Below are positions 2,845-35,105 of a stretch of 64,000 bases of DNA, one piece after another (the first letter of the stretch is position 1; each line of letters begins with the position of its first letter). This stretch comes from Branchiostoma floridae. Lineage: Eukaryota; Chordata; Leptocardii; Amphioxiformes; Branchiostomatidae. Both the position numbers and the translations under genes were made by a program. Location of the stretch: positions 11,394,985 to 11,458,984 of the forward strand of contig NC_049990.1 in assembly GCF_000003815.2 (NCBI RefSeq). The letters run 5' to 3'. Under the pieces are notes generated by a model that worked only from the letters and a program-made list of their open reading frames with translations, was not told where the DNA came from and did no database searches.

Positions 2845-3778
2845 AACTCCTCTGGTAGCAAAACTCCCTTGGCAAATTATTCTCCCTACTAGCCAGCGCA
2901 GTCAGCCTGTTACAGACTATTAACTGACCGGTTCTGTCTCACGTGCATGCTGATGTGTCGTCTTACAAAGTGAAGATTGTCTCCCTCACGGCGAGTGGCA
3001 GGCCGCTTGTGATCCGTGATCGCAAACATGGCCTGGAGTTAGATATGCAACCGTGAACGGTAAAAAAATTCACAAGTAGTATCTGCCATGACATATGACG
3101 CTGGTGCATGTGTCTTTCGACAACAATTGATTACATACATGGAAGCTACATAAGAATTATTGTATAGAGCTTTAGGTTCTCGGAGCTCCGTTCCAAGGGC
3201 CAATGTTGCTAGCTCAAAGAGTTACGAGAATTCTAAACTACGCATTATCAGAACTCTGGTATGATTCAGCCTTCAGAAGTGTATTGATGAGTTGCGTGAA
3301 TATCTAGATGCAATTTCCCACAACTGTGTTTTTTTCTTCTGTCAGGCAGCGTAGACAAATCATATTTCCAGTGGAGTGTTTCAATTTCCTTATAAACACA
3401 AGCGACCATTATATAAGACCACGTGTGTAACGTCACAAGATTGTGCTGAACAACGACGTCGGCAGCCAATGGGATATAAGTTCTTCTTGATTGTTACCTG
3501 TCTTGAAACATCCTGTTGTTTAAAAAGAGCTACGTGACATGTTAAATATTCATTTCTAAAACGAGGACCAATCAAGTGGCGTATTTCAGGCTGGCAGGTA
3601 ACGACTGACGTCGCCGCATGTTGCACTAACTCCGACCAGACTCCGTGCCTACTGCGCAGCCCGAACGTACAAGGTAAAGAGTTGTCCTTTCAATCACACA
3701 GCGGCACATAATAGAAAGAGATTGAAGACCTTATTTTCTGTTAGGCCAGATAATTTTCTTTTCACGAACGAGTTTACA
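2845..3778 (+). other. Upstream flank of array copy A
   Basis: This flank matches the segments before B and E, including the CCAAT box (3466-3470), the GGCTGGCAGGTAACG block and the CAAGGTAAAGAG putative donor near 3670. It lacks the hairpin element found at 6727-6989 and 17966-18210, so it looks like the empty-site version of the flank. Confidence 0.5.
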
Positions 3779-5541
3779 ATGATCCTGCAAATGTTTAGGA
3801 AGTGCGACCATTTTGAGGTCCAAACAAGAGGCAGGGGCAAAGGATGGTGTTGCCTACTCCTTCTTGTTCTGTTCATGGTGATATCTAATTCTTGTACGGG
3901 AGAAAACATACAATACTGCAAGAGATATATGACTCGCATTCGCTGCACGTTAATTAATCATGAGCTAATCTAATCACCAGTTTTCCAACAGAAATACCAA
4001 ATAACGTTTATATCTTGAAGGTGGGTCTGGGTATCAGGAACCTTACGCATATTCCACTTTTTCCGAATCTAAGCACATTGGACATGAAGATAAACCGTAT
4101 CGATACTGTCTCGTGGATTTCACTGAAAAAATTACCTTGTTTATCGATTCTCTCTCTGTCATTTAATAGAATCGCGCACGTGAACTTGGGTGTAGTTATA
4201 GGACATCTTCCAAAGCTGAAATTCGTTGATCTGTCAAATAACAGGCTCACATCCTTTTCCGAACGTGACATAGGACTTCCCTTCTTGAAACGGGTAGGCA
4301 TTAATGATAACCCTTTCGCCTGTGACTGTACGATGTTGTGGCTGATAAATAAAACCAAGTGTTTAAACGAATGTAAGAAAACACGCTCCGATTGCTATGC
4401 CGAATGTGCTGCTGGTTTTCTTCCACCCCAATTTGGCGGCGAAAGATTTCACTGTAGCAGTCCAAATGATTTGAAAGCATTGACTTTAGAAGATATCAAC
4501 ACATCAACGATGAGATGTGAAATCTCATCAACGGCTATACAGATGCCTCTTTCTCGACAACTTGTCACAACTCATGATCTTTCTTCGACTAGCGGATACG
4601 TGGCCGCTCACGGCAATACCGGCGACAATGCTCATTGTGTAGTACATTCAGATGGGCTTCGGACTGAAACATTTGAACCCACAAGGCCTACAAACAAATC
4701 GACTAGCATTTTCCAAACAGAGAACAGTAACAAAGAGATAACTCGCAGTGTACATGTCAAAATCATAGCTTCTGTCATTTACGTGGGGTTATTGTTGCTC
4801 TTGACAATAAAGATAGTTATGTTGCGCCGATCCGGTAGAGATGATATTGCAGCGGGTGAAGCTATTATGCTACAACGTATCAATCCGCCGATAGAAAACA
4901 ATGCTTAGCGCCTACCATAGAAACTGTAATGCAGGGCCAACACAGCAAGATTCTACCAACATATCTCTGGCCATCTCTACCTCACATGATGCCGCCAATT
5001 CTCAACACGCTCTATCACAGGCACCGTAATACAGGGGTAGCACTACTACCTGATCCTACCAAAATATGCTTTGCCCAAGCCATTACACCTATGGAAAACG
5101 CTGCCTACAACCGAAACTGCAACGCATGGACAGTACAACAAGTTCCTACCGATATATCTCTGGCTCAAGTAGCACCGCCAATTTTCAATATACTGCCTAT
5201 TACAGGCACTCTAATATAGGGATTCAACAGACACCTACCGCACAATGCCTGGCCCAAGTCATTCCACCAATAGAAAACACTGCGCTGTGCCTACAACCGA
5301 AACTGCAACACGGCAACAAGTTCCTACCTGGCTCGAGTGGTACCCCAATTCTCAACACTACCTATCACACATACATGCAGGCACCGTAGTACAAGGAGGG
5401 ACCTCACAACCACATGAAACTTATTCTACCGAACCATTCTTGGCCCAAATCATTCCACCTATAGAAAAGACTGTATGTCATTTGGAACAGCAATGCCGCT
5501 ATAGCACAAGATCAACAGCAAGGTCAACAGCATTTAGGTGA
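3779..5541 (+). pseudogene. LRR receptor copy A, disrupted
   Basis: The leader is recognisable (MILQMFRK..., hydrophobic LLLLVLFMVIS), but the LRRNT region has lost sequence relative to D and carries an extra 8 bases near 3967 (GAGCTAATCTAATCACC against GAGCTAACC in B). This gives a stop at 3973 and a frameshift. The LRR, LRRCT and membrane helix then stay open from about 4015 to 4908 with no leader. A second lesion just after the helix (AACAATGCTTAGCGCC against AACACTGCC) stops the frame at 4908. The repeat tail continues in broken frames to about 5541. The tail lesion is shared with copy D, the closest relative (both read PPQFGGERFHC and TLEDI). Residual expression from the internal ATG at 4084 would yield a protein without a signal peptide. 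Confidence 0.8.
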
Positions 5542-6289
5542 AGTGGACGATCCAAGTGTCAATACTCCTAGGAAATGATTGGAGGGTAATTGACTTTTTT
5601 CTTAAACATTTTACCTGACATAAATGTAGTTAGTGTCGCTCTGTAACATGGGAAATAATACTGTGCATATGGATATGTAGATCTATATGTAGAGAGTTTG
5701 ATCGATATTTTGGATTTTAACTAAGCAACAAAGCAGATGTAGTCGTCATGAATGTTACAGAGTGTACACTAAAATAACATACTGTAGCACACAAAAAACG
5801 TCCTGTTCTCAGACGTCTCCCTGACTTATGTCCCCGAACATGCATGTCATAAAACACTAGTAGGTCAAGGGACAGGAAGAACAAATTATATAGTCTGTAC
5901 GCTGTAGTCTGTCGACCAATAACTGCAAAACGATTCCGAATTTCTTAATACAATTTTGAAAATGTGGTAGAACATTACTTGGTGCTCTAATTAGCTATAG
6001 GTTGCATTTTATAATACTGCTATAAACTGTTCTACTAGACATGCTGTGTTCAATCGCTCCCCCCAACCTAACGAAGTTCTGTATTTCTGAGTCGTTATGT
6101 ACTTCATAGTTGTCAGTATATGAACATGTACAATCTTTGTATTAGCGCCATTTAGACTGTGCACCGAAAACCTTGTGTTCCTGTGAAGTAGCAACCTAAT
6201 AAAGCTATTCACGGAATGATGTGTCTTTCGACCCTTATCTAAAATGTGAGGAATAAGCACATTTATAAGCACATTTGGAACGACTTTCT

Positions 6290-6545
6290 GCCACACTTCT
6301 AATTGTAGCCAGGGACCGAGCCATTTTCTTTATGGTTTCTTTTATATGGAGACACTCATCCGAAGTACTCCCGAGTACCTTCATAGTTACTACTTGCTTT
6401 ATTGAACTCCCGTCAGTAATTTTGACATTTTCGGTTTATACCCAAGCAGCACAGCATTACACTTTGTCTTATTTACGTTCACGAAGAGTATGTTTAAACG
6501 CATCCACTTACATACATTATTCAAACCTTCCTGGAAATTGACTTA
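6290..6545 (-). mobile_element. Reverse-transcriptase relic, A-B spacer
   Basis: The minus strand encodes FQEGLNNVCKWMRLN, then FVNVNKTK, and after a frame break VLGSTSDECLHIKETI. These resemble the RT thumb region of Jockey/CR1-type LINEs (VC.W...N.L.VN..KTK ... LGV.iDe.L.w..HI). The relic carries frame breaks, so it is not functional. The same relic lies at 17507-17765, so it predates the duplication of the A-B-C block. Confidence 0.6.
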
Positions 6546-6726
6546 ACTCCAACAGGCCTTCCCAACGGGGGTGCGGGGAAAGAAGAATTCGATAATGAAG
6601 AAATCAGGAAAATTGGCCGGGGGAGTCAGACCACGCTAAGGCCGGCCAACTCCTCTGGTAGCAAAACTCTCCATATAATAGCCAGCGTAGTCAGTCTATC
6701 TGGTAGAGACTATACATTAACCGTTA

Positions 6727-6989
6727 AGGTGCACTTTCACTGCACTTGCGTCAAGCTTGCGTCACTGCGGGGTTCGAACGATACTCAACGATTTTCAGAG
6801 ATATAGAAGGAAAATTTTCTTACTTCTTGCAAGGAGCTTGCTTCTTGTGTCCTTTGTCGTTTTCTAAGTCATACTTTTACAATACCTGAATTATAAAAAA
6901 ATCGGCGACTTTGAATTAACACAGCGGTACCGCAGTGTACGAACCCCGCAGTGCCGGACCGGTGCCCCAAGTACAGTGAGACACGACCT
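6727..6989. mobile_element. MITE with ~55-bp inverted ends, A-B spacer
   Basis: The ends are imperfect inverted repeats, one running AGGTGCACTTTCACTGCACT to CACTGCGGGGTTCG and the other its complement. TTA lies on both sides (6724-6726 and 6990-6992). No coding sequence. The matching flank of copy A (near 2930) has no such hairpin and looks like an unfilled site. Confidence 0.6.
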
Positions 6990-7559
6990 TTAGCAATAAC
7001 GTGTTTGCTGATGTGTCATCTGCGTACATGGCGGTGATTGTCTCTGGTTAAATATGGTTATTTAGTCTCTTTGAACTCCCTCACGGCGAGTGGCAGGCCG
7101 TTTGTAAATACATGTATTGTAAACATAGCCTGGAGTTAGATGTGCAAAGGTTAAAAATGTAAGTAGTCTTAGTATCTGCCGGGGTGTGCATGTGAAGCTA
7201 GTGCATGTGTCTTTCGACAACAATTGATTACATACATGGGCGCTACATCGGATTTTATGTGGATCTTTAGGCTCTCGGAGCTCCATTGCAAAGGCCAATG
7301 TTTTAAAGAGCTCCGAGGATTCTAAACTACGTATCTGTCATGGGAATTGTCAGAACTTCGGTCTGATTCAGCCTTCAACAGTGAATTGATTAGTTGCACG
7401 AATATTCAGATGCAATTTCGTTTTTTTCCTTTTTGTCGGGCAACGTAGACAAATCTAATTTTCAGTGGAGTGTTTTAATTTCCTCATAAACACAGGACCA
7501 TTACATAAACTCACTTGTGTAACGTCACGAGGTTGTGCCGAAGGACCGGCCCAATAGTT

Positions 7560-7896: not shown

Positions 7897-10224
7897 ATGA
7901 TCCTGCAAATGTTTAGGAAGCGCGACCACTTTGAGGTCCAATCAAGAAGCAAAGGATGGTGTTTCGTACTCCTTCTTGTTCTGTTCATGGTGATATCTTG
8001 TACGGGAGACAACGTTAACATGAAACACTGTAAGTCGGAATGGGCCATTACAAAAAATACAACTGAAATTGCTTGCTCGTTTAGAATGCTTGAGCTAACC
8101 GGTTTTCCAACAGAAATACCAAAGGACGTTTTTATCTTGAAGATTGGTCCGTGTATTAAGAATCTAACACACATCCCACTTCTTCCAAATCTAAACAAAT
8201 TGGAAATGAATGTCAACCTTATCGAAACTGTCTCGTGGATTTCACTGAAAAATTTACCTAGTTTATCACTTCTCTGTCTGTCATTCAATAGAATCGCGCA
8301 CGTGAACTTAGGTGTAGTTATAGGGCATCTTCCAAAGCTCAGGTTCGTAGATCTGTCAAATAACAGGCTCACATCCTTTTCCGAACGTGACTTGGGACTT
8401 CCGTATTTAAAAACAGGAATCATTAACTATAACCCTTTCGCCTGCGACTGTACGATGTTGTGGCTCATAAACAAGACCAAGTGCTTAAAAGAATGTAAGA
8501 CAACACGCTTAGATTGCTACTCCGAATGTGATGCTGGTTTTCTTCCACCCAAATTTGGTGACGAGAGACTTTATTGTGAAAGACCAAATCTTTTGAAAGG
8601 GTTGTCTTTAGGTGAAATGAACACATCAGCGATGGGATGTGAAACATCTACGGCAATACAGACGCCTTTTGCTGGACAACTTGGCACATCTAATTATCTT
8701 TCTTCGACTAACGAATACGTGGCCACTCGCGGCAACACCAGTGACAATCATCGGTTAGCACATACAGATGGGATTCGGACTGACACATTTGAAGCCACAA
8801 GGCCCACGAACATACGGACTAGAATTCTCAAAACAGAGGACAGTAACAAAGAGATAAGCAGTGTACATATCATAATCATAGTTTCTGCCATTTTCTGCGG
8901 GTTATTATTTTTCTTGTTCATGATGATAAAGATAGTAATATTGCGCCAATCCGATAGAGATCATAACGCAGCGGGTGCAGCTATGATAATGCAACATATC
9001 AGTCCACCGGTACAAAACACTGCCTATCATCAAAACTGTAATGTAGGGGCAGCACAACAACAAAATTCTACCGACATATCTCTGGCTCACATAATGCCAC
9101 CAATTCCCAACACTCTGTACCACCAGCACCGTAATACAGGTGTAGCACAACTACCTGGTCCTACCCAAACATGTCTGACCCAGGTCATTCCACCGATAGA
9201 GAACACTGCCTACAACAGAAACACCAATGCTGGAGCAGGACAACAAGATTCTATCGACATATCTCTGGCTCAATTGGCACCACCAATTCTTAACACTACC
9301 TATCACAGGCACCGTGATACAGGCATATCACAACCACCTGTAACTAATTCTACCGCACCATGCCTGGCGATAGCCCAGATTATTCCATCAATAGAAAACA
9401 CTGGCTACCATCGGAACAGCAATGCCGCTTTAGCACAAGAAGCAGATACTATGGACATGCCTCTAGGGAAAGAAATACCATCGGATCACATCAGAAGTGC
9501 TTGTGACACAAACATCTATTCAGATTCATCGCAGCTATCAAACTCTGACATTTCGATGGCCCCACCAATAGAGAACGCTACATACAGCAGTGTACAAAAC
9601 AACGATTTCCACAGCACTGCATACTGCGGTACGCATCAATTACGTGTTGGGTATATACAGAGGGGAGAACCTATGATGAGCCATTCAGATTCATCGCAGC
9701 TATCAAACTCTGACATTTCTATGGCCCCACCAATAGAGAACGCTACATACAACAGTGTACAAAGCAACGATTTCCACAGCACTGCATACTGCGGTACGCA
9801 TCAATTACGTGTTGGGCATGTACAGAGGGGGGAACTTGTGATGAGCCAACGTCACAGCAACGAATCGCACAACAGTGCTTACAACTGTACACAGAGTAAT
9901 GAATTCAACAACACTTCATATGGCAGGTCACAATGTAGCATCGATGTTGCCTCGTCACAGGCTATCCCCTCTGTCCAACACGCAATTGATGCGCCAAGCC
10001 GTTTAGGCATTGCATCACCAATGACACTACCTCAAAGCACACTAGTTTCGGGCTCTGAAAGGGAGGCAGGCACGGGTTGCTTGTCTTCCCCAGGACCATT
10101 GCCAGAACTGCCATCGGTTGTGAATCCACATGAACCTGATGATGTCATCGACGAAAACACTGGAAAAGACACTGTCTCTGAACACGAATATGAGGACATG
10201 CACGACTATGAGGAAATTCAGTAA
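7897..10224 (+). CDS. LRR transmembrane receptor, copy B, full-length tyrosine-repeat tail (775 aa)
   Basis: Predicted single-pass surface receptor in one uninterrupted frame. The start is an ATG at 7897; upstream in-frame starts are not ATG. A hydrophobic leader spans about residues 21-36. An LRRNT-like Cys region lies at about 45-86, followed by three to four LRRs at 87-170 (NNRL and FNRI cores). An LRRCT starting NPFACDC runs to about 248. A Thr/Ser stalk leads to a membrane helix at about 324-349. The cytoplasmic tail of about 425 residues has five units of the type PPI-x-NT-x-Y spaced 30-35 residues, two longer units with NATY and STAY, then NSAY and NTSY. It has a PLPELP motif and ends EHEYEDMHDYEEIQ. 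YEDM fits a PI3K-type SH2 site and YEEI a Src-family SH2 site. I do not recognise a named family; ligand and function are unknown. It is the only array copy with the complete tail. Confidence 0.88.
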   Translation: MILQMFRKRDHFEVQSRSKGWCFVLLLVLFMVISCTGDNVNMKHCKSEWAITKNTTEIACSFRMLELTGFPTEIPKDVFILKIGPCIKNLTHIPLLPNLNKLEMNVNLIETVSWISLKNLPSLSLLCLSFNRIAHVNLGVVIGHLPKLRFVDLSNNRLTSFSERDLGLPYLKTGIINYNPFACDCTMLWLINKTKCLKECKTTRLDCYSECDAGFLPPKFGDERLYCERPNLLKGLSLGEMNTSAMGCETSTAIQTPFAGQLGTSNYLSSTNEYVATRGNTSDNHRLAHTDGIRTDTFEATRPTNIRTRILKTEDSNKEISSVHIIIIVSAIFCGLLFFLFMMIKIVILRQSDRDHNAAGAAMIMQHISPPVQNTAYHQNCNVGAAQQQNSTDISLAHIMPPIPNTLYHQHRNTGVAQLPGPTQTCLTQVIPPIENTAYNRNTNAGAGQQDSIDISLAQLAPPILNTTYHRHRDTGISQPPVTNSTAPCLAIAQIIPSIENTGYHRNSNAALAQEADTMDMPLGKEIPSDHIRSACDTNIYSDSSQLSNSDISMAPPIENATYSSVQNNDFHSTAYCGTHQLRVGYIQRGEPMMSHSDSSQLSNSDISMAPPIENATYNSVQSNDFHSTAYCGTHQLRVGHVQRGELVMSQRHSNESHNSAYNCTQSNEFNNTSYGRSQCSIDVASSQAIPSVQHAIDAPSRLGIASPMTLPQSTLVSGSEREAGTGCLSSPGPLPELPSVVNPHEPDDVIDENTGKDTVSEHEYEDMHDYEEIQ

Positions 10225-11679: not shown

Positions 11680-13354
11680 ATGACCATGCAAATGTTTTGG
11701 AAGCGCGACCACTTTGAGGTCCAAACAAGAAGCAAAGAGTGGTGTTTCATACTCCTTCTTGTTCTGTTCTGTTATTGTACGGGAGACAATATGAAACACT
11801 GCAAGACCGTGGTCCTAGGAAAAAACACGACTGTCATTGGTTGCTTTTTTATTAATCTTGAGCTAACTGAGTTTCCAAGAGAAATACCAAATAACGTTTA
11901 TATCTTGAAGGTTGGTCCATGTATTAGGAACCTTACGCATATTCCACTTCTTCCGAATCTATATTAATTGGAAATGAATTTCAACCTGATCGAAACTGTC
12001 TCGTGGATTTCATTGAAAAATTTACCAAGTTTATCGCTTCTCTGTCTGTCATTCAATAGAATCACGCACGTGGACTTAGGTGTAGTTATAGGGCATCTTC
12101 CAAAGCTCAGGTTCGTAGATCTGTCTAACAACGTTGACAGGCTCACATCCTTTTCCGAACGTGACTTGGGACTACCCTACTTAACACAGGTAGACATCAA
12201 TGATAACCCTTTCGCCTGTGACTGTACGATGTTGTGGCTGATAAACAAGACCAAGTGTTTAAAAGAATGCAGGAAAACAAACTCAGTTTGCAATTCCGAT
12301 TGTGCTGCTGGTTTTCTTCCACCCAAATTTGGCGGCGATAGATTTTACTGTAGCAGTCCAAATCATTTGAAAGGATTGTCTTTAGATGAAATCAACACAT
12401 CAGCGATGAGATGTAAAACCTCTACGGCTATACAGATGCCTCTTGCAAAACGACCTGGCACATCTAATCATCTTTCTTCGACTAACTAATACGTGGCCGC
12501 TCGCGGCAACACCAGTGAAAATCATCGGTTAGTACATTCAGATGGGATTCGGACTGAAATATTTGAACTTACAAGACCCACGAACACACCGCCTAGTATT
12601 TTCAAAACAGAGAACAGTAACAAAGAGATAAGCAGTGTACATATCATAATCATAGCTTCTGTCATTTTCTTGGGGTTATCATTTGTCTTGCTCATGACAA
12701 TAAAGATAGTCATTTTGCGCCGATCCGGTAGAGATGATAATGTTATCGGTGCAGCTATTATGCTGCAACATGTCAGTCCGCCGATACAAAACACTGCCTA
12801 CCATAGAAACTGTAATGCAAGGCCAACACAACAAGATTCTACGGTCATATCTCTTGCTCAGACGATGCCACCAATTCTCAACACTCTGTACCACCAGCAC
12901 CGTAATACAGGGGTAGCACAACTACCTAATCCTAGCCAAACATGTCTGACCCAGGTCATTCCACCGATAGAGAACACTGCCTACAACAGAAACACCAATT
13001 CTACCGAAATATCTCTGGCTCACATGATGCCACCAATTCTCAACACTCTGTACCACCAGCACCGTAATACAATGGCAGCACAACTACCTGATCCTACCCA
13101 AACATGTCTGACCCAAGTCATTCCACCGAAAGAAAACACTGCCTACAGTGCATCACCAATGACACTGCCTCGAACCACACTAGTTTCAGGCTCTCAACGG
13201 GAGGCAGGCACGGGGCGCTTGCCTTCCTCACGGCCATTGCCAGAACTGCCCTCGGCATGACCCTAATAACGATGTCATCGCCGAAAACACGGGAAAAGAC
13301 ACTGACTCTGAACATGAATATGAGGATATGCACGACTATGAGGAAATTTACTAA
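11680..13354 (+). pseudogene. LRR receptor copy C, two nonsense mutations
   Basis: The frame starts with an ATG at 11680 (MTMQMFWKRDHFEVQ...) and matches copy F closely. Two in-frame stops break it: TAA at 11965-11967, where F has TCA (Ser), and TAA at 12487-12489, where F has GAA (Glu). Otherwise the frame runs on to a stop after PLPELPSA at 13260. A 7-residue piece of the tail (AGAGQQD) found in F is missing near 13008. Past 13260 the segment coding for the YEDM/YEEI end persists in another frame to about 13354. Read-through or RNA editing would be needed to make a full protein, so I call it a pseudogene. Confidence 0.82.
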
Positions 13355-15008: not shown

Positions 15009-16142
15009 ATGCTGCAATTGTTTTGGAAGCGCGACCACTTTGAGGTCCAAACAAGAAGCAAAGGATGGTGTTTTATACTCCTTCTTGTTCTGTTCTTGGT
15101 GATATCTTGTATGGGAGACAACATGGAATTCGAATACTGCAAGAGAGAAAGGGCCCTAGGAAAAAATATATCTTACATCGGTTGCACGTTTAATAAGCTT
15201 GAGCTTACCGGTTTTCCAACAGAAATACCAAATAACGTTTATCGCTTGAAGGTTGGTCCGTGTATCAGGAACCTTACACATATTCCACTTCTTCCGAATC
15301 TAAACATGTTGGAAATGAATATCAACCATATCGAAATTGTCTCGTGGATTTCACTGAAAAATTTACCTAGTTTATCGCTTCTCCGTCTGTCATTCAATAG
15401 AATCGCGCACGTGAACTTGGGTGTAGTTATAGGACATCTTCCAAAGCTCAGGTTCGTAGATCTGTCTAACAACAGGCTCACATCCTTTTCCGAACGTGAC
15501 ATAGGACTTCCCTTCTTGAAAAGGGTACACATCAATGATAACCCTTTCGCCTGTGACTGTACGATGTTGTGGCTGATAAACAAGACCAAGTGTTTAAACG
15601 AATGTAAGAAAACACGCTCAGATTGCTACTCCGAATGTGTTGCTGGTTTTCTTCCACCCCAATTTGGCGGCGAAAGATTTCACTGTAGCAGTCCAAATGA
15701 TTTGAAAGCATTGACTTTAGAAGATATCGACACCTCAACGATGAGATGTGAAATCTCATCAACGGCTATACAGATGCCTCTTTCTCGACAACTTGGCACA
15801 ACTCATGATCTTTCTTCGACTAGCGGATACGTGGCCGCTCACGGCAATACCAGTGACAATGCTCATTGGGTGGTACATTCAGATGGGCTTCGGACTGAAA
15901 AATTTGAACCCACAAGGCCCACAAACAAATCGACTAGCATTTTCCAAACAGAGAACACTAACAAAGAGATAGGCTGTGTACATGTCAAAATCATAGCTTC
16001 TGTCATTTACGTGGTCATTGGGTTATTGTTGCTCTTGACAATAAAGATAGTTATGTTGCGCCGATCCGGTAGAGATGATATTGCAGCGGGTGAAGCTATC
16101 ATGCTACAACGTATCAATCCCCCGATACAAAACAATGCTTAG
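15009..16142 (+). CDS. LRR transmembrane receptor, copy D, very short tail (377 aa)
   Basis: The ectodomain is intact: leader (FILLLVLFLVISC), LRRNT, LRRs, LRRCT (NPFACDC) and stalk, then a membrane helix (IYVVIGLLLLL) and only about 28 cytoplasmic residues ending NPPIQNNA. The ATG used by B reads ATA here, so I start two codons later at the ATG at 15009. The stop comes from a frameshift (AACAATGCTTAGTGCC against AACACTGCC) shared with copy A. All tyrosine repeats are lost from the frame. If made, the product could bind a ligand without tail signalling, like a decoy; this is inference. A recently dead gene is the alternative. Confidence 0.72.
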   Translation: MLQLFWKRDHFEVQTRSKGWCFILLLVLFLVISCMGDNMEFEYCKRERALGKNISYIGCTFNKLELTGFPTEIPNNVYRLKVGPCIRNLTHIPLLPNLNMLEMNINHIEIVSWISLKNLPSLSLLRLSFNRIAHVNLGVVIGHLPKLRFVDLSNNRLTSFSERDIGLPFLKRVHINDNPFACDCTMLWLINKTKCLNECKKTRSDCYSECVAGFLPPQFGGERFHCSSPNDLKALTLEDIDTSTMRCEISSTAIQMPLSRQLGTTHDLSSTSGYVAAHGNTSDNAHWVVHSDGLRTEKFEPTRPTNKSTSIFQTENTNKEIGCVHVKIIASVIYVVIGLLLLLTIKIVMLRRSGRDDIAAGEAIMLQRINPPIQNNA

Positions 16143-20814: not shown

Positions 20815-22419
20815 ATGATCCTGCCAATGTTTAGAAAGCGCGATCACGTTGAGGTCCAATCAAGAAGCAAAGGATGGTGTTTCATACTCCTTCTTGTTCT
20901 GTTCATGGTGATATCTTGTACGGGAGACAACATGAAACACTGTAAGTCGGAATGGGCCATTACAAAAAATACAACTGAAATTGCTTGCTCATTTAGAATG
21001 CTTGAGCTAACCGGTTTTCCAACAGAAATACCAAAGGACGTTTTTATCTTGAAGATTGGTCCGTGTATTAAGAACCTAACACACATCCCACTTCTTCCAA
21101 ATCTAAACAAATTGGAAATGAATGTCAACCTTATCGAAACTGTCTCGTGGATTTCACTGAAAAATTTACCTAGTTTATCGCTTCTCTGCCTGTCATTCAA
21201 TAGAATCGCACACGTGAACTTGGGTGTACTTATAGGACATCTTCCCAAGCTGAAATTCGTTGATCTGTCAAATAACAGGCTCGCATCCTTTTCCGGACAT
21301 GACTTAGGACTTCCTTATTTGAAAACAGGAATCATTAACGACAACCCTTTCGCCTGTGACTGTGCGATGTTGTGGCTCATAAACAAGACCAAGTGCCTAA
21401 AAGAATGTAAGAAAACACGCTTAGATTGCTACTCCGAATGTGATGCTGGATTTCTTCCACCCAAGTTTGGTGACGAGAGACTTTATTGTGAAAGTCCAAA
21501 TCATTTGAAAGGGTTGTCTTTAGATGAAATGAACACATCAGCGATGGGATGTGAAACCTCTACGGCAATACAGACGCCTTTTGCTGGACAACTTGGCACA
21601 TCTAATTATCTTTCTTCGACTAACGAATACGTGGCCGCTCGCGGTAACACCAGTGACAATCATCGGTTGGCACATACAGGTGGGATTCGGACTGAAACAT
21701 TTGAACCCATAAGGCCCACGCTCATACCCACTAGCATTCTCAAAACAGAGGACAGTAACAAAGAGATAAGCAGTGTACATATCATAATCATAGTTTCTGC
21801 CATTTTCTTGGGGTTATTATTTTTCTTGTTTATGATGATAAAGATAGTAATATTGCGCCGATCCGATAGAGATCATAACGCAGCGGGTGCAGCTATGATG
21901 ATGCAACATATCAGTCCACCGATACAAAACACTGCCTATCATCAAAACTGTAATGCAGAGGCAGCACAACAACAAGATTCTATCGACATATCTCTGGCTC
22001 ACACGATGCCACCAATTCCCAACACTCTCTATCACAGGCACCGTAATACAGGGGTAGCACAACTACCTGGTTCTACCCAAACATGTCTGACCCAGGTCAT
22101 TCCACCGATAGAGAATACTGCCTACAACAGAAACACCAATGCTGGAGCAGGACAACAAGATTCTACCGACATATCTCTGGCTCACATGATACCACCAATT
22201 CTTAACGCTGCCTGTCACATGCACCGTGATACAGGCATTTCACAACCACCTGTAACTGGTTCTACCGCACCATGCCTGGCCGAGGCCCAGATTATTCCAC
22301 CAATAGAAAACACTGGCTACCATCGACACAGCAATGCCGCTTTAGCACAAGAAGCAGATACTACGGACATGCCTCATCGCAGCTATCAAACTCTGACATT
22401 TCGATGGCCCCACCAATAG
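20815..22419 (+). CDS. LRR transmembrane receptor, copy E, truncated tail (534 aa)
   Basis: E is the closest relative of B, starting at an ATG at 20815 (MILPMFRKRDHVEVQ). It has the same order: leader, LRRNT, LRRs, LRRCT, stalk, membrane helix (IFLGLLFFLFMMIKI) and tail. The tail keeps four NT-x-Y units; the fourth of five repeats reads NAAC, with its Tyr lost. A 64-nt deletion relative to B, at about 22374, shifts the frame, so the protein ends with about 14 unrelated residues at 22419. The B-type distal tail continues out of frame to 23072. The membrane receptor itself looks intact. Confidence 0.78.
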   Translation: MILPMFRKRDHVEVQSRSKGWCFILLLVLFMVISCTGDNMKHCKSEWAITKNTTEIACSFRMLELTGFPTEIPKDVFILKIGPCIKNLTHIPLLPNLNKLEMNVNLIETVSWISLKNLPSLSLLCLSFNRIAHVNLGVLIGHLPKLKFVDLSNNRLASFSGHDLGLPYLKTGIINDNPFACDCAMLWLINKTKCLKECKKTRLDCYSECDAGFLPPKFGDERLYCESPNHLKGLSLDEMNTSAMGCETSTAIQTPFAGQLGTSNYLSSTNEYVAARGNTSDNHRLAHTGGIRTETFEPIRPTLIPTSILKTEDSNKEISSVHIIIIVSAIFLGLLFFLFMMIKIVILRRSDRDHNAAGAAMMMQHISPPIQNTAYHQNCNAEAAQQQDSIDISLAHTMPPIPNTLYHRHRNTGVAQLPGSTQTCLTQVIPPIENTAYNRNTNAGAGQQDSTDISLAHMIPPILNAACHMHRDTGISQPPVTGSTAPCLAEAQIIPPIENTGYHRHSNAALAQEADTTDMPHRSYQTLTFRWPHQ

Positions 22420-23072
22420 AGAACGCTACATACAACAGTGTGCCAAGCAACGATTTCCACAGCACTGCATACTGCAGTGCGCATCAAATTCGGGTTGGGC
22501 ATATACAGAGGGGAGAACCTGTGATGAGCCATTCAGATTCATCGCAGCTATCAAACTCTGACATTTTTATGGCCCCACCAATAGAGAACACTACATACAA
22601 CAGTGTACAAAGCAACGATTTCCACAGCACTGCATACTCCGGTACGCATCAATTACGTGTTGGGTATGTACAGAGGGTGGAACGTGTGATGAGCCAACGT
22701 CACAGCAACGAATCGCACAACAGTGCTTACAACTGTACACAGAGTAATGAATTCAACAACACTTCATATGGCAGGTCACAATGTTGCAACGATGTTGCCT
22801 CGTCACAGGTTATTCCCTCTGTCCAACACGCAATTGATGCGCCAAGCCGTTTAGGCATTGCATCACCAATGACACTGCCTCAAAGCACATTAGTTTCGGG
22901 CTCTGAAAGGGAGGCAGGCACGGGGCGCTTGCCTTCCGCAGGACCATTGCCAGAACAACCATCGGCTGTGAATTCACTTGTACCTGATGATGTCATCGAC
23001 GAAAACACTAGAAAAGACACTGACTTTGAGCATGAATATGAAGACAGGCACGACTATCAGGAAATTGACTAA
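22420..23072 (+). pseudogene. Out-of-frame distal tail of copy E
   Basis: After the E stop, the second frame encodes the B-type distal tail: the SDSSQLSNSDI and PPIENATYNSV units, the NSAY and NTSY motifs and the C-terminus. The terminal motifs are altered: YEDM reads YEDR and YEEI reads YQEI. This frame has no start of its own. It is open to a stop at 23072, so the frameshift is probably recent, or the segment is reached by splicing. Confidence 0.65.
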
Positions 23073-24529: not shown

Positions 24530-26137
24530 ATGACCGTGCAAATGATTTGGAAGCGTGACCACTTTGAGGTCCAAACAAGAAGCAAAGGGTGGTGTTTCAT
24601 ACTCTTTCTTGCTCTGTTCTGTTCTTGTACGGGAGACAACATCAAACACTGCAAGACCGTGGTCCTAGGAAAAAACACGACTGTCATTGGTTGCTTTTTT
24701 ATTAATCTTGAGCTAACTGGGTTCCCAACAGAAATACCAAATAACGTTTATATCTTGAAGGTTGGTCCGTGTATTAGGAACCTTACGCATATTCCACTTC
24801 TTCCGAATCTATATTCATTGGAAATGAATTTCAACCTTATCGAAACTGTCTCGTGGACTTCACTGAAAAATTTACCTAGTTTATCGCTTCTCTGTCTGTC
24901 ATTCAATAGAATCGCGCACGTGGACTTAGGTGTAGTTATAGGGCATCTTCCAAAGCTCAGGTTCGTAGATCTGTCTAACAACAGGCTCACATCCTTTGCC
25001 GAACGTGACTTGGGACTACCCTTCTTAACACAGGTAGACATCAATGATAACCCTTTCGCCTGTGACTGTACGATGTTGTGGCTGATAAACAAGACCAAGT
25101 GTTTAAAAGAATGCAGGGAAACAAGCTCAGTTTGCTATTCCGAATGTGATGCTGGTTTTCTTCCACCCAAATTTGGCGGCGATAGATTTGACTGTAGCAG
25201 TCCAAATAATTTGAAAGGATTGTCTTTAAAAGATATCAACACATCAGCGATGAGATGTAAAACCTCTACGGCTATACAGATGCCTCTTGCAAAACGACCT
25301 GGCACATCTAATTATCTTTCTTTGACTAACGAATACGTGGCCGCTCGCGGCAACACCAGTGACAATGCTCATTGGGTAGTACATTCAGATGGGACTCGGA
25401 CTGAAACATTTGAACCCACAAGCTTAAGACCCACTAACACACCGACTAGCATTCTCAAAACAGAGAACAGCAACAAAGAGATAATAAGCAGTGTACATAT
25501 CATAATCATAGCTTCTGCCATTTTCTTGGGGTTATCATTTGTCTTGCTCATGACAATAAAGATAGTCATTTTGCGCCGATCCGGTAGAGATGATAATGCT
25601 ATCGGTGCAGCTATTATGCTGCAACATGTCAGTCCACCGATACAAAACACTGCCTACCATAGAAACTGTAATGCAAGACCAACACAACAAGATTCTACGG
25701 TCATATCTCTTGCTCAGACGATGCCACCAATTCTCAACACTCTGTACCACCAGCACCGTAATACAGGTGTAGCACAACTACCTGATCCTAGCCAAACATG
25801 CCTGACCCAAGTTATTCCACCGATAGAGAACACTGCCTACAACAGAAACACCAATGCTGGAGCAGGACAACAAGATTCTACCGACATATCTCTGGCTCAC
25901 ATGATGCCACCAATTCTCAACACTCTGTACCACCAGCACCGTAATACAGGGGCAGCACAACTACCTGATCCTACCCAAACATGTCTGACCCAAGTCATTC
26001 CACCGAAAGAAAACACTGCCTACAGTGCATCACCAATGACACTGCCTCGAACCACACTAGTTTCAGACTCTCAACGGGAGGCAGGCACGGGGCGCTTGCC
26101 TTCCTCACGTCCATTGCCAGAACTGCCCTCGGCATGA
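24530..26137 (+). CDS. LRR transmembrane receptor, copy F (535 aa)
   Basis: Complete frame from the ATG at 24530 (MTVQMIWKRDHFEVQ) to a stop after PLPELPSA. It has a leader, LRRNT, LRRs, LRRCT (NPFACDC...KCLKECRETSSVC), a stalk and a membrane helix (IFLGLSFVLLMTIKI). The tail has five units with NTAY or NTLY and then a proline-rich end. Relative to B it lacks the long distal units, and an 11-nt deletion after PLPELPS puts the YEDM/YEEI end out of frame. It is the parent-like sequence for pseudogene C and for the 3' part of G. Confidence 0.8.
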   Translation: MTVQMIWKRDHFEVQTRSKGWCFILFLALFCSCTGDNIKHCKTVVLGKNTTVIGCFFINLELTGFPTEIPNNVYILKVGPCIRNLTHIPLLPNLYSLEMNFNLIETVSWTSLKNLPSLSLLCLSFNRIAHVDLGVVIGHLPKLRFVDLSNNRLTSFAERDLGLPFLTQVDINDNPFACDCTMLWLINKTKCLKECRETSSVCYSECDAGFLPPKFGGDRFDCSSPNNLKGLSLKDINTSAMRCKTSTAIQMPLAKRPGTSNYLSLTNEYVAARGNTSDNAHWVVHSDGTRTETFEPTSLRPTNTPTSILKTENSNKEIISSVHIIIIASAIFLGLSFVLLMTIKIVILRRSGRDDNAIGAAIMLQHVSPPIQNTAYHRNCNARPTQQDSTVISLAQTMPPILNTLYHQHRNTGVAQLPDPSQTCLTQVIPPIENTAYNRNTNAGAGQQDSTDISLAHMMPPILNTLYHQHRNTGAAQLPDPTQTCLTQVIPPKENTAYSASPMTLPRTTLVSDSQREAGTGRLPSSRPLPELPSA

Positions 26138-26973: not shown

Positions 26974-27017
26974 CATGGCTTCCTCGGTAGTGTCGCTTCT
27001 ACAAGTAAAACCATTAA

Positions 27018-27262: not shown

Positions 27263-27378
27263 TGGCGTATAGTGTGCTACAACATAACAGAATCTCTCAT
27301 TCTGGGACTTTCTTGTCATGTTGACCATCTCCAAAGAAGAAAACATTTTTTTTAATCAGGCTTTATGTTCCTACCCAC

Positions 27379-28222: not shown

Positions 28223-29851
28223 ATGATAATGCTGCAAATGTTTAGGAAGCGCGACCACTTTGAGGTCCAAACAAGAAGCAAAGGATGGTGTTTTATACTC
28301 CTTCTTGCTCTCTTCTTGGTGATATCTTGTATGGGAGAAAACATGGAATTCGAATACTGCAAGAGAGAAAGGGCCCTAGGAAAGAATATATCTTACATCG
28401 GTTGCACATTTAATAAGCTTGAGCTTACCGGTTTTCCAACAGAAATACCAAATAACGTTTATCGCTTGAAGATGGGTCCGTGTATTAAGAACCTTACACA
28501 TATTCCACTTCTTCCGAATCTAAACATGTTGGAAATGAATTTCAACCTTATCGAAACTGTCTCGTGGATTTCACTGAAAAATTTACCTAGTTTATCGCTT
28601 CTCTGTCTGTCGTTCAATAGAATCGCGCACGTGGACTTAGGTGTAGTTATAGGGCATCTTCCAAAGCTCAGATTCGTAGATCTGTCAAATAACAGGCTCA
28701 CATCCTTTGCCGAACGTGACTTGGGACTACCCTACTTAACACAGGTAGACATCAATGATAACCCTTTCGTCTGCGACTGTACGATGTCGTGGCTGATAAA
28801 GAAGACCAAGTGCTTAAAAGAATGCAGGGAAACAAGCTCAGTTTGCTATTCCGAATGTGATGCTGGTTTTCTTCCACCCAAATTTGGCGGCGATAGATTT
28901 TACTGTAGCAGTCCAAATAATTTGAAAGGATTGTCTTTAAAAGATATCAACACATCAGCGATGATATGTAAAACCTCTACGGCAATACAGATGCCTCTTG
29001 CAAAACGACCTGGCACATCTCATTATCTTTCTTCGACTAACGGATACGTGGCCGCTCGCGGCAACACCAATGACAATGCTCATTTGGTAGTACATTCAGA
29101 TGGGATTCGGACTGAAAAGGCATTTGAACCCACAAGCTTAAGACCCACTAACACACCGACTAGCATTCTCCAAACAGAGAACAGTAACAAAGAGATAATA
29201 AGCAGTGTACATATCATAATCATAGCTTCTGTCATTTTCTTGGGGTTATCATTTGTCTTGCTCATGACAATAAAGATAGTCATTTTGCGCCGATCCGGTA
29301 GAGATGATAATGCTATCGGTGCAGCTATTATGCTGCAACATGTCAGTCCGCCGATACAAAACACTGCCTACCATAGAAACCGTAATGCAAGGCCAACACA
29401 ACAAGATTCTACGGTCATATCTCTTGCTCAGACGATGCCACCAATTCCCAACACTCTGTACCACCAGCACCGTAATACAGGTGTAGCACAACTACCTAAT
29501 CCTAGCCAAACATGTATGACCCAAGTCATTCCACCGATAGAAAACACTGCCTACAACAGAAACACCAATGCTGGAGCAGGACAACAAGATTCTACCGACA
29601 TATCTCTGGCTCACATGATGCCACCAATTCTCAACACTCTGTACCACCAGCACCGTAATACAGGGGCAGCACAACTACCTGATCCTACCCAAACATGTCT
29701 GACCCAAGTCATTCCACCGAAAGAAAACACTGCCTACAGTGCATCACCAATGACACTGCCTCGAACCACACTAGTTTCAGACTCTCAACGGGAGGCAGGC
29801 AAGGGGCGCTTGCCTTCCTCACGTCCATTGCCAGAACTGCCCTCGGCATGA
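28223..29851 (+). CDS. LRR transmembrane receptor, copy G, mosaic (542 aa)
   Basis: Complete frame from the ATG at 28223 (MIMLQMFRKRDHF) to a stop after PLPELPSA. The first part, through the LRRNT (NMEFEYCKRERALGKN) to about 28530, is copy-D-like. From FNLIETV onward it is copy-F-like through LRRCT, helix and tail. The LRRCT reads NPFVCDCTMSWLIKKT, differing from NPFACDCTMLWLINKT in the other copies, so a possible N-glycosylation site (NKT) is lost. The tail keeps five NTAY/NTLY-type units. The YEEI end lies out of frame downstream. Confidence 0.8.
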   Translation: MIMLQMFRKRDHFEVQTRSKGWCFILLLALFLVISCMGENMEFEYCKRERALGKNISYIGCTFNKLELTGFPTEIPNNVYRLKMGPCIKNLTHIPLLPNLNMLEMNFNLIETVSWISLKNLPSLSLLCLSFNRIAHVDLGVVIGHLPKLRFVDLSNNRLTSFAERDLGLPYLTQVDINDNPFVCDCTMSWLIKKTKCLKECRETSSVCYSECDAGFLPPKFGGDRFYCSSPNNLKGLSLKDINTSAMICKTSTAIQMPLAKRPGTSHYLSSTNGYVAARGNTNDNAHLVVHSDGIRTEKAFEPTSLRPTNTPTSILQTENSNKEIISSVHIIIIASVIFLGLSFVLLMTIKIVILRRSGRDDNAIGAAIMLQHVSPPIQNTAYHRNRNARPTQQDSTVISLAQTMPPIPNTLYHQHRNTGVAQLPNPSQTCMTQVIPPIENTAYNRNTNAGAGQQDSTDISLAHMMPPILNTLYHQHRNTGAAQLPDPTQTCLTQVIPPKENTAYSASPMTLPRTTLVSDSQREAGKGRLPSSRPLPELPSA

Positions 29852-30568: not shown

Positions 30569-30684
30569 TGGCGTATAGTGTGCTACAACGTAAAAGATTA
30601 TCTCATTCTGGGACTTTCTTGTCATGTTGACCATCTCCAAAGAAGAAAACATTTTTTTTAATCAGGCTTTATGTTCCTACCCAC

Positions 30685-30870
30685 CAAGCAGAGGTTCGGC
30701 TCCGGTTGTTAATTGACGTGTACGTTTTAGGCGTTTTATAGGGCTTTCTATTTTGTGTTGTTTTCTTTATGTCTCACCGCCGATACATAAGAAAACAGCA
30801 CAAAATAGAAAGCCCTATAAAAACACCTCAAACAAGTAAAAAAAGCAACCGCAGCCGAGACTCTGTTTGA
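30685..30870. repeat. Long-hairpin element, G-H spacer
   Basis: Copy of the hairpin, nearly the same as the F-G copy, consistent with recent duplication of that spacer. Confidence 0.6.
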
Positions 30871-31526
30871 AGAGTACTCTATCGATCTGTCCCCTCCGTT
30901 CCAAGGCAAATGTTACTCAAGCGTTCCGAAGATTCCAATCTACGCGTAGCGGACTTTTGTTTTGGTCAAAACTCTTGACTGATCCAGCCCCTAACAGCGA
31001 ATTCGTTACTTGCGTGAATATTTAGATACAATTTTCCCTGTGTATTTTTCTTTCGTTTGTGACGCAGTGTGGACAAATTTAATTTCCAGTGGGGAATTTC
31101 AATTTCCTTATAAACACAACTGTCCATTATCAAAAAAAAAAAACACTAACGTAACGTTGTGCTCAAGGACCAGCCAATAGTTATCGACGTACGCGTCGAC
31201 AGCCAATGGGATTGGTTCTTCTTGATTGTTACAGGCCCTGAAACATCCTTATTGTTCAATATTCATTTCTAAAACGAAGACAAATCAGTTAACGTATTTC
31301 AGGCTGGCAGGTAACGAACGTCTGCACAGCTCTTCCACTTACTCCGACCAGACTCCGTACACAACACTAGGACACTCCGCGGGCAGCCCAAAAGTACAAG
31401 GTAAAGAGTTGCCTTTCTCAGTCAAAGCGGCAAAAAAAGGGATTGAGAACTTCTTTTCTGTTAAGCCAGATAATTTTCTCCTGTAAAACGTTGAAGAAAA
31501 AAGAATCTGTTTTCACGCACGAGTCT

Positions 31527-34110
31527 ATGATAATGCTGCAAATTTTTTGGAAGCGATACCACTGGCTGAAGACTAAGGTGCAGTCCCTCAGTGACTTTCT
31601 TGATCAACCTACCTGTCCACCGATCAATGGAGAGTCAGTAGAGGTGGTTTCTTGCTTCACCTATCTCGGCAGCGTTATTACGCAGGACTGCAAGTCTGAC
31701 CAAGATGTCAAGCGCAGACTCGGAATCGCCTCTGCAGCCTTTGCCAGCCTTGGCCGTGTATGGCGCTGCAAACATCTCTCCAGAACGGCCAAGCTGAAGG
31801 TGTACAACACTCTGGTTCTTTCAGTGCTCCTGTATGGAGCCGAGTCATGGACTCTCACCAAGTCACTGAAACAGAAACTGGACTCCTTCGATTCACAGTG
31901 CCTTAGAAACATCGAGGGCATCCGCTGGCAGGACCATGTCACCAACGAAGTAGTACGCCACACAACAAACCAGATCCCGGTCAGCCAAAAGATCACCAAG
32001 TACCAGCTTAACCTTCTGGGACACATCTCCAGAGCAACACCGACCCAGGAAGTGATCAAATTGATCACCTCAGTTCCAGATTCAACTTGGAGGCGCCCCA
32101 GAGGCCGTCCTAGGAGCAGATGGGAGGACCAAGTCTTCAAAGTGCTGGACACCACAGGGGTCAGCAGATCTGACTGGAGAACTCTGGCTGAAAACAGAAC
32201 ATCTTGGAGGGACATGTCTACAGCCGCTATGCATCTCCCCTGATGCCCGCGGCTGATTGATACCACTTTGAGGTCCAAACAAGAAGCAAAGGATGGTGTT
32301 TTATACTCCTTCTTGTTCTGTTCTTGGTGATATCTTGTATGGGAGACAACATGGAATTCGAATACTGCAAGAAAGAAAGGGCCCGAGGAAAAAATATATC
32401 TTACATTGGTTGCACGTTTAATAAGCTTGATCTTACCGGTTTTCCAACAGAAATACCAAATAATGTTTATCGCTTGAAGATGGGTCCGTGTATTAAGAAC
32501 CTTACGCATATTCCACTTCTTCCGAATCTATATTCATTGGAAATGAATTTCAACCTTATCGAAACTGTCTCGTGGATTTCACTGAAAAATTTACCTAGTT
32601 TATCGCTTCTCTGTCTGTCATTCAATAGAATCGCGCACGTGGACTTAGGTGTAGTTATAGGGCATCTTCCAAAGCTCAGATTCGTAGATCTGTCAAATAA
32701 CAGGCTCACATCCTTTGCCGAACGTGACTTGGGACTACCCTACTTAACACAGGTAGACATCAATGATAACCCTTTCGTCTGCGACTGTACGATGTCGTGG
32801 CTGATAAAGAAGACCAAGTGTTTAAAAGAATGCAGGGAAACAAGCTCAGTTTGCTATTCCGAATGTGATGCTGGTTTTCTTCCACCCAAATTTGGCGGCG
32901 ATAGATTTTACTGTAGCAGTCCAAATAATTTGAAAGGATTGTCTTTAGATGAAATCAACACATCAGCGATGAGATGTAAAACCTCTACGGCAATACAGAT
33001 GCCTCTTGCAAAACGACCTGGCACATCTAATTATCTTTCTTCGACTAACGGATACGTGGCCGCTCGCGGCAACGCCAGTGACAATGCTCATTTGGTAGTA
33101 CATTCAGATGGGATTCGGACTGAAAAGGCATTTGAACCCACAAGCTTAAGACCCACTAACACACCGACTAGCATTCTCAAAACAGAGAACAGTAACGAAG
33201 AGATAAGCAGTGTACATTCCATAATCATAGTTTCTGCCATTTTCTTCGGGTTATTATTTTTCTTGTTCATGACAATAAAGATAGCAATATTGGGCCAACC
33301 CGATAGAGATGATAACGCAGCGGGTGCAGCTATTATGCTGCAACATATCAACCCACCGATACAAAACACTGCCTATCATCAAAACTGCAATGCAGGGGCA
33401 GCACAACAACAAAATTCTACCGACATATCTCTGGCTCACATGATGCCACCAATTCCCAATTCCCCAAACTCTATCACAGGCACCGTAATAGCACAACTAC
33501 CTGGTCCTACCCAAACATGTCTGACCCAGGTCATTCCACCGATAGAAAACACTGCCTACAACAGAAACACCAATGCTGGAGCAGGACAACAAGATTCTAC
33601 CGACATATCTCTGGCTCAATGATGCCACCAATTCCCAATTCACAAAACTCTCTATCACAGGCACCGTAATACAGGTGTAGCACAACTACCTGGTCCTACC
33701 CAAACATGTCTGACCCAGGTCATTCCACCGATAGAAAACACTGCCTACAACAGAAACACCAATGCTGGAGCAGGACAACAAGATTCTACCGACATATCTC
33801 TGGCTCACACGTTGCCACCAATTCTCAACACTCTGTACCACCAGCACCGTAATACAGGGGCAGCACAACTATCAGCCAAACATGCCTGACCCAGGTCATT
33901 CCACCGAAAGAAAACACTGCCTACAGTGCATCACCAATGACACTGCCTCGAACCACACTAGTTTCAGACTCTCAATGGGAGGCAGGCACGTCCATTGCCA
34001 GAACTGCCCTCGGCATGAACCCAATAACGATGTCATCGACGAAAACACTGGAAAAGACACTGACTCTGAACATGAATATGAGGACATGCACGACAAATTT
34101 ACTGAAAGTT
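31527..34110 (+). pseudogene. LRR receptor copy H, split by a LINE insertion
   Basis: The ATG at 31527 (MIMLQIFWKRYH) is followed within 40 bases by a 695-bp LINE fragment, so the start codon and leader are cut off from the ectodomain. The LRR frame resumes at 32259 and is open to 33622, with a first ATG at 32339 (MGDNMEFEYC) that gives no signal peptide. A one-base deletion (GGCTCAATGATG against GGCTCACATGATG) ends that frame in the tail. The tail remnant continues in another frame to about 34110 and contains a tandem duplication of roughly 190 bp (33447-33619 and 33623-33800). The final YEEI codons are missing (EHEYEDMHDKFTE). The leader is D/G-like, the ectodomain G-like and the helix B/E-like. 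Confidence 0.82.
31564..32258 (+). mobile_element. 5'-truncated LINE (reverse transcriptase C-terminus) inserted in copy H
   Basis: The insert encodes the C-terminal part of a non-LTR retrotransposon polyprotein: YLGSVITQD, LLYGAESWTL, then a Trp/Arg-rich end (RRPRGRPRSRWEDQV), typical of RTE-like or related clades. It is flanked by a 9-bp duplication GATACCACT (31555-31563 and 32259-32267). Paralogues have a single GCGACCACTTTGAGG at this site. The element is truncated at its 5' end, as expected for target-primed reverse transcription, and ends shortly after the RT stop at 32243 with no poly(A). It lies in the same orientation and frame as the receptor start, giving a 238-codon chimeric frame from 31527. 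Confidence 0.88.
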
Positions 34111-35105
34111 TGATCTCATGTGTTTTAAATGATATCAATAGCATTGTGGGAAGTGGACAATCAAAAGTTTCAATATTCCTAGAGTATGATTTTAGGATAA
34201 CTGGTCCTTTTCTTCATAATTTTGACTACGGCCACAGCAAGTAAATTTTATGGATTACAATCGTCATTACGTCGTCTGCAGACTGCAAAAATAATGAGAT
34301 AGGGCGAAAAACAAGGTGGGTAAAAACTAGATAGCTAAATTTTCAAAATAGAAACAACAAATAGATTCTCCCATTTTGGTACTTTCTGGTCAACACGAAG
34401 AAGAAAACCTTCTTTCTGACATTAGGTGAAAAATAATGAGCACACCGATGCCATCTATAAAAAGTTACTTCCTGTGACCGAACATAAATGTAGTGGTCGC
34501 TCTGTAAACAATTGTTAAAATTGCATGTTAATAGATCTAGAGAGTTTGATCGATGTTTGAGCTTAACCAATCAACACAGTAGATGTAGACGTCGTTAATG
34601 TTACGAAGCGTGAACGAAAACAACATTTTGTTGCACAGGAAACAATGTTCTGTTCTCTGACGTTTTCCTGATGTATGTCCCTGAACAGGCACGTCATTAA
34701 ACACAGGTAGGACACAAGGGACAGGGAAAACAAATTATATAGTCTATAGTCTGGTCTCTGTCGACCAATAACTGCAAAATTATTCTGAATTTCTCATTCC
34801 AATTTTGAAAATGTGGTAGAAAATTGTTTGGTGCTACACTATGGTTACATTACATCAGATACTAATGTAAAAAAGTTCAAGTAGAAATGCTGTTTTCTTG
34901 TTTGCCCTCAATCTAAAAGAATTCTGCTCTTCGTAGCCGTTATGTACTTCAGTCTGTATATGTACAGAACATGTATAATGTATTAGCGCCATTTGGACTG
35001 TGCACCGAGAACCTTATTTTCCTGTGACGTACCAATATAATAAAGCTATATACGGAATATCAATGTGTCTTCTGACCTTCGTATTGAAGTTGAGGAATAA
35101 GCACA
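34111..35105. other. 3' flank of copy H, end of array
   Basis: This stretch matches the 3' flanks of A and D in patches (CATAAATGTAGT..GTCGCTCTGTA near 34490, GACGTTTTCCTGA near 34660, TTAGCGCCATTTGGACTGTG near 34980). It includes no open receptor frame. Similarity ends near 35105. Confidence 0.55.

Follow-up and report, generated by a model that had tools for sequence, protein, structure and literature searches.

Eight receptor-like genes in tandem

The DNA analyzed here, a 64,000-bp stretch of the Branchiostoma floridae genome (C12:11394985-11458984, hereafter the window), carries a cluster of related genes that combine a short leucine-rich repeat (LRR) head with a tyrosine-rich tail. When one of them, copy B, was compared with the whole window by tblastn, eight copies (A to H) were found head to tail on the + strand, with coding similarity from 3779 to 34094 and no further similarity to copy B elsewhere in the window. 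Five of the eight (B, D, E, F, and G) are open from the leader through the membrane helix; A, C, and H are broken, and only copy B has a full-length open tail. The main features, in window positions, are as follows.

3779..5374, + strand: copy A, broken by an 8-bp insertion in the LRRNT region; a 7-bp insertion, common to copy D, stops the frame where the tail begins
7897..10224, + strand: copy B, 775 amino acids (aa), full-length open tail (open reading frame and tblastn)
11680..13348, + strand: copy C, broken; in-frame TAA at B-codons 101 and 273, and the LPSA* frame change
15009..16142, + strand: copy D, 377 aa; open through ectodomain and helix, with a tail of 27 residues
20815..22419, + strand: copy E, 534 aa; tail frame shifted by a 64-bp deletion of its own
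24530..26137, + strand: copy F, 535 aa; five NxxY sites, C-terminus RPLPELPSA*
28223..29851, + strand: copy G, 542 aa; five NxxY sites, C-terminus RPLPELPSA*
31527..34094, + strand: copy H, broken in the leader, which a LINE (long interspersed nuclear element) fragment interrupts, and in the tail frame
31555..32267, + strand: LINE-like fragment in copy H with GATACCACT on either side; Pfam DUF6451, by eye similar to reverse transcriptase
3670, 7784, 11550, 14873, 20700, 24400, 28093, and 31397: splice-donor-like CAAGGTAAAGAG sites of copies A to H, respectively

A frame change common to C, F, G, and H makes these copies end at LPSA*, ~30 residues short of the B C-terminus. The tail of copy D lacks NxxY because the 7-bp insertion it has in common with A stops it 27 residues past the predicted helix; a decayed tail remnant runs on to ~16790. 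The remaining tail of copy E is open in another frame (22374-23072). Counted per tail, NxxY sites number nine in B, five in F and G, four in E before the frame shift, and none in D. In copy H, GATACCACT is a 9-bp repeat at 31555 and 32259 that flanks the LINE-like fragment (target-site copies), and the fragment is in frame with the old start codon. In all eight copies, CAAGGTAAAGAG lies upstream of the start, and the distance from its GT to the start codon (or to the position homologous to it) is 105-132 bp, perhaps leaving room for an intron in the 5' untranslated region.

A small capped LRR head

Copy B can be divided into the following parts.

7897..8004, + strand: signal peptide with a long n-region, aa 1-36, predicted from hydropathy
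8005..8652, + strand: ectodomain, aa 37-252 (Pfam, PDB search, alignment, model, and VIA-align)
8653..8862, + strand: Ser/Thr-rich stalk, aa 253-322
8863..8946, + strand: membrane helix, aa 323-350 (hydropathy 2.96)
8947..10221, + strand: cytoplasmic tail, nine NxxY sites with N at aa 374, 405, 436, 466, 501, 560, 615, 659, and 672
9518..9848, + strand: two 165-bp tandem units in the tail, each with MAPPIENATY
10096..10221, + strand: C-terminal part, PLPELP (aa 734-739) followed by EYEDMHDYEEIQ

The ectodomain consists of a two-Cys LRRNT-like cap, approximately four LRRs, and an LRRCT-like cap with a cysteine-rich insert, and the tail extends 426 residues past the helix. An ectodomain model built from 26 family members had a mean pLDDT (predicted local distance difference test) of 89.1; an earlier model from the eight near-identical copies had a mean of 35.4 and was discarded. 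As modelled, the ectodomain is a capped LRR solenoid of the size seen in variable lymphocyte receptors (VLRs), and its LRR sequence and solenoid fold are those of the extracellular capped-solenoid LRR class. The caps are atypical, as Pfam (E<=1) recognized LRRNT in two and LRRCT in one of the 20 family members scanned. No TIR domain, as in Toll-like receptors, was found in the Pfam scan of these 20. The cysteines invariant among 20 aligned members are C45, C60, C183, C185, C196, C211, C227, and C248 (B numbering).

The initial annotation had described eight head-to-tail copies with a shared architecture in one apparently intronless frame. The eight copies are borne out. The architecture holds for the leader, short LRR ectodomain, LRRCT-like cap, single helix, and tyrosine tail, with the qualification that the caps are unusual by Pfam standards, and the single frame holds for the coding part of B, D, E, F, and G but not for the broken A, C, and H.

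Tails rich in NxxY motifs

To the tail counts, 27 proteins from the window and from other family loci (L numbers) contributed; D, L025, and L026 (short tails) and L018 (no helix) were dropped, leaving 23 tails, and L022, missed by the filter, stood outside the tally. In these 23 tails, NxxY holds 81 of the 125 tyrosines, compared with 11.1 expected. The repeats are mostly P-P-psi-x-N-x-x-Y units, psi being hydrophobic: I/L/V/M/F stands at -5 in 59 of the 81 NxxY sites, and PPxxNxxY is present in 19 of the 23 tails. For each of B, E, F, and G, the NxxY count was reached in 0 of 2000 shuffles. The repetitive tyrosine tail reported earlier is therefore real as an NxxY excess over shuffles, but it is no uniform array, with 0 to 9 sites per copy.

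Conservation by position was scored in 13 of the 27 proteins (one per subfamily, of our choosing, with equal weights). It peaks at -7, -6, -5, and -3 (z 13-20), ahead of the tyrosine, is weaker at -1 and +1 (z 9.4 and 7.4), and is slight at +3 (1.7). Among the 75 tail tyrosines of these genes, +3 is L/I/V in nine and M in one, and +2 is N in five. Immunoreceptor tyrosine-based activation or inhibition motifs (ITAM/ITIM; [ILVS]xYxx[LIV] or paired YxxL/I) do not describe these tails, in which L/I/V at +3 is limited to those 9 of 75 tyrosines and none falls in the repeats. What the tails do carry is psi-x-N-x-x-Y, the sequence form of a phosphotyrosine-binding (PTB) domain ligand.

The motif codons are also under constraint, with the linkers drifting. 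In copies B, C, E, F, G, and H, the ratio of nonsynonymous to synonymous differences (pN/pS) was 0.13 for the PP-psi-N-Y codons vs. 0.81 for the rest of the tail, which was equaled by 18/10000 random sets (5/10000 without B; 95/10000 with B, E, F, and G only). PTB-domain exons are present in the same genome, and at least one PTB domain accepts NxxY without proline, according to PMC3683042. This sequence pattern points to docking of PTB-domain proteins, for signaling or uptake, rather than to ITAM/ITIM signaling.

Constraint and segment exchange

Across B, D, E, F, and G, pN/pS was 0.32 (95% interval 0.18-0.53) in the LRR core, 0.56 in LRRNT, 0.71 in LRRCT, 1.02 in the stalk, and 0.91 in the helix. 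The LRR core is under purifying selection, contrary to what a hypervariable recognition face would show, and the stalk and helix are near neutral. Between aa 37 and 248, four or more residues occur among the eight copies only at columns 47, 57, 101, 175, 232, and 239; two of the central strands are near-invariant in all eight, with variation at the edges of strands 2 and 5. Eight pairs from other clusters were also compared: the nonsynonymous divergence (dN) of the LRRs was below the synonymous divergence (dS) in seven and approximately equal to it in the near-identical pair L013-L014. A fast-evolving LRR face was rejected on the basis of the core pN/pS of 0.32.

Some copies are mosaics. Left of aa 129, copy D is G-like (63/72 informative sites), and to the right it is A-like (25/140 G-like), a pattern as strong in 0/2000 shuffles. 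Copy H is G-like at 133/149 sites outside aa 312-429, a segment spanning the helix and first tail sites in which it is B-like (11/47 G-like; 0/500 shuffles). The signals are weaker in B, E, and C. In the C3 cluster, L014 and L060 have an LRR dS of 0.31 but a stalk dS of 0.00 and a tail dS of 0.05, whereas for L013 and L014 the LRR dS is 0.01 and the stalk dS is 0.15. Judged from these patterns, neighbors swap segments, re-pairing heads with tails.

A family with at least 125 matched loci

The genome searched comprises 513,431,437 bases in 431 contigs. Two protein searches were made. Copy B as query gave 68 matches and the ectodomain of a C14 member gave 127; merged within each search, these correspond to 57 and 124 loci. 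Together these amount to at least 125 loci on at least 20 contigs, with at least 37 on C3 and at least 33 on C18; this is a lower bound because only 58/1068 and 127/1679 first-look candidates were scored, and its weakest matches may be other LRR genes. The B tail alone matches 45 places, those outside the window mainly on C3 and also on C12, C18, C9, C187, and C8. All 20 first-read loci have the family open frame (19 via the open-frame filter, L022 on re-inspection), and the layout is shared in one open frame across them, with tails shortened in some: L025 and L026 are short-tailed, and L018 is short and without a helix. When 26 ectodomains were placed in a tree, the open window copies B, D, E, F, and G formed one clade (100/100); the deeper branching was not resolved, and the tree carries a long-branch warning.

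The expanded LRR receptor cluster proposed in the initial annotation is supported and is far larger than the window shows. Its supposed fast evolution fits the turnover, breakage, segment exchange, and drift of stalk and helix, but not the constrained LRR core.

Two loci at C18:11.09 Mb, L020 and L023, carry another repeat type, TTNRTYENPTGALD and TNxIYSI, in which NxxY is kept without PP-psi; from its sequence, this array seems to have been rebuilt from a different unit. L059 (C8:8576800-8580300) has a family-like tail (PPIQNSVY, PPIANSMY) in an open frame of 910 aa that is truncated where the locus begins, and its stalk is much longer.

Relation to known receptors

The same kind of tiny capped LRR head is seen in the amphioxus VLR-like protein Bf66946 (PDB 4xsq; PMC4731796), which phmmer matched at E 6.8e-8 with copy B and 6.1e-23 with the family profile. 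In the accessible text of that paper, Bf66946 binds Gram-positive bacteria via its concave face. It differs from the window family in the C-terminal hydrophobic region given in a figure legend, with no tyrosine tail described in that text, and in an LRRNT with four Cys in two disulfides, compared with two conserved Cys here. The family has the hallmarks of VLR and VLR-like proteins, namely, LRRNT, few LRRs, LRRCT, and a VLR-sized solenoid. However, lamprey and hagfish VLRs are somatically assembled, whereas the window family consists of whole germline genes (in one assembly) with an LRR core conserved between copies.

BbLcLRR of Branchiostoma belcheri (MW390887; PMC8211107) is a lancelet protein with the same succession of LRRNT, LRRs, LRRCT, one helix, and tyrosine tail, and its HDYxx[VI]-type end is common with copy B and L016. 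The paper gives 699 residues, the motifs TRYLRV, DDYATV, HDYSEV, and HDYDDP, and Y690, and reports that the protein occurred together with BbLck and also bound SHIP1 in Jurkat cells. These four motifs are not in the window family, in which copy B has only the related HDYEEI. The WSC domain that characterizes BbLcLRR was found in 0/20 family members scanned (Pfam, E<=1), and none of 74 WSC matches lies <19 kb from any family match. All four motifs are held by L062 (C9:17158600-17165000), where ten residues separate the last tyrosine from the stop, as in BbLcLRR, and where LRR, WSC, LRRCT, helix, and tail pieces lie in separate short open frames. L062 has 32% identity to B over 68 aa (E 0.002), and its tail piece has 10 tyrosines and one NxxY. 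By these sequence features, L062 is likely the BbLcLRR counterpart in this genome, and its presence agrees with the lancelet origin of the DNA. Equating the window family with BbLcLRR was therefore rejected; the latter is a different, multi-exon WSC gene, which corrects a likely misfiling of the published lancelet LRR tyrosine receptor. A second candidate relative of BbLcLRR, C13:1918811 (L061), was also rejected: it reads as a WSC receptor, repeats that look PKD-like by eye are present, and no LRR stood out.

To our knowledge, there are no NxxY arrays in the vertebrate LRR transmembrane proteins (LINGO, LRRC4/NGL, AMIGO, LRRTM, Nogo receptor, and GPIb). The psi-x-N-x-x-Y core is found in the PTB-docking receptors TrkA, RET, and LRP. 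It is also found in APP, per PMC3683042. These four share the core with the window family, but they mostly have one or two sites and are of kinase or LDLR type, whereas the family has LRR heads and arrays of up to nine. We found no published description of the window's family in the literature searched (subscription papers were outside its reach). The family's unfamiliarity, as first annotated, stands in that no named family emerged from this literature, but the scale of the head (Bf66946) and the LRR-helix-tyrosine-tail layout (BbLcLRR) were already known.

Proposed function and alternatives

We propose, with moderate confidence, that these genes encode lancelet LRR receptors whose tails are variable-length arrays of the PTB-ligand form P-P-psi-x-N-x-x-Y and that family members are type I surface receptors encoded by single exons. 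The layout would be a signal peptide, a small capped LRR solenoid, a Ser/Thr-rich stalk, one helix, and a disordered tail. The head would bind a ligand, microbial or self, upon which receptors may cluster. A Src-family-type kinase could then phosphorylate the NxxY tyrosines, or plain NxxY may be read directly. PTB adaptors (of the Shc, Dok, FRS2, Numb, or Dab type) might dock several at a time, and array length would therefore set the strength of signal or uptake. In copy B, the C-terminal PLPELP...YEEI pair may hold the kinase; PLPELP and EYEDMHDYEEIQ are a possible SH3/SH2 ligand pair. The immune role and cell type of the family are ones that we infer, and an innate receptor role is plausible by analogy. 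The best-known vertebrate immunoreceptors signal via SH2-binding tyrosine motifs. If our proposal is true, a VLR-sized LRR head with serial PTB-type sites would be an alternative multivalent design for an immune or uptake receptor in a chordate, and the family tails would offer a natural length series to probe how site number sets output.

Several observations weigh against this proposal. The tail motif was first read from copy B itself, some NxxY sites lack psi, and PPxxNxxY is absent from 4 of the 23 tails (L020, L023, L024, and L024b). No residue is fixed after the tyrosine, and -2 is mostly Thr, not the Pro of NPxY. Motif constraint is weaker for pN alone, at 124-794/10000 by copy set with three codons per site, and at 562/10000 for B, C, E, F, G, and H (284 without B); the pairwise counts depend on one another, and unit numbers are raised by tandem duplication. 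Only two genes, B and L016, keep the PLPELP...YEEI pair intact and in frame, and in B the preceding Arg is replaced by Gly; the pair may be due to chance. Finally, D, L025, and L026 are near-tailless, and therefore part of the family cannot signal via an NxxY array.

A broader idea, which we offer tentatively and consider somewhat unlikely, is that a large class of germline LRR immune receptors arose in lancelets and signals via tunable PTB-docking arrays replacing ITAM/ITIM-SH2 signaling, with gene conversion among neighboring copies re-pairing heads and tails and signaling diversifying. Tails would lengthen and shorten, between 0 and 9 sites, through tandem duplication of a phosphotyrosine cassette. 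Change in tail length and head-tail re-pairing would therefore diversify signaling strength more than the recognition face.

Alternatively, these could be endocytic or scavenger receptors whose plain NxxY is read by Dab/ARH/Numb-type PTB adaptors with clathrin, serving particle uptake in gut or gill with little tyrosine signaling. The same NxxY evidence underlies this explanation, and YSSV and YNSV in copy B fit YxxPhi sorting signals. However, LDLR-type sorting prefers NPxY, and Pro at -2 is rare in these tails. Amphioxus FrLRR, an LRR protein that promotes bacterial binding and phagocytosis according to PMC10199209, provides a precedent. Present evidence does not separate uptake from signaling; still, we regard a purely endocytic role as rather unlikely.

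A non-immune role in adhesion or guidance, in epithelia or the nervous system, as for the single-exon LRR transmembrane proteins of vertebrates, is quite unlikely. A conserved LRR core would be expected for a fixed self ligand, phmmer of PDB ranks LINGO1 and LRRC4B first, and the best folds by VIA-align include Nogo receptor, LRRTM2, and AMIGO1. Yet these ranks are biased because PDB holds mostly vertebrate proteins, and it would be unusual for receptors of this type to have at least 125 matched loci, with tandem turnover and broken copies among them.

SH2-type immunoreceptors with ITAM/ITIM-like tails, as proposed in the literature for BbLcLRR with Lck and SHIP1, would be in keeping with two motifs, HDYEEI (C-terminus of B) and HDYETV (L016), which resemble BbLcLRR HDYSEV and DDYATV, and with the association of BbLcLRR with BbLck and its SHIP1 binding in Jurkat cells (PMC8211107). 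However, SH2-type contexts are few among the 75 tyrosines counted above (nine L/I/V and one M at +3, five N at +2), and C, F, G, and H have lost the HDY-bearing C-terminal end, making this explanation very unlikely. That most copies are non-functional relics of a decaying cluster is highly improbable: three of eight are broken before or in the ectodomain and one of eight has a full tail, but the open copies keep the LRR core and tail motif constrained, and many members elsewhere are open.

Other features of the window

An Rfam scan of the window returned no match. An open frame at 42047-42760 contains NHL repeats (Pfam E 2.1e-21), one at 55685-56509 contains an ANF_receptor ligand-binding region (Pfam E 2.5e-30), and on the - strand, at 46850-47722, there is an open frame of 290 aa with a high content of Lys, Glu, and Ser.
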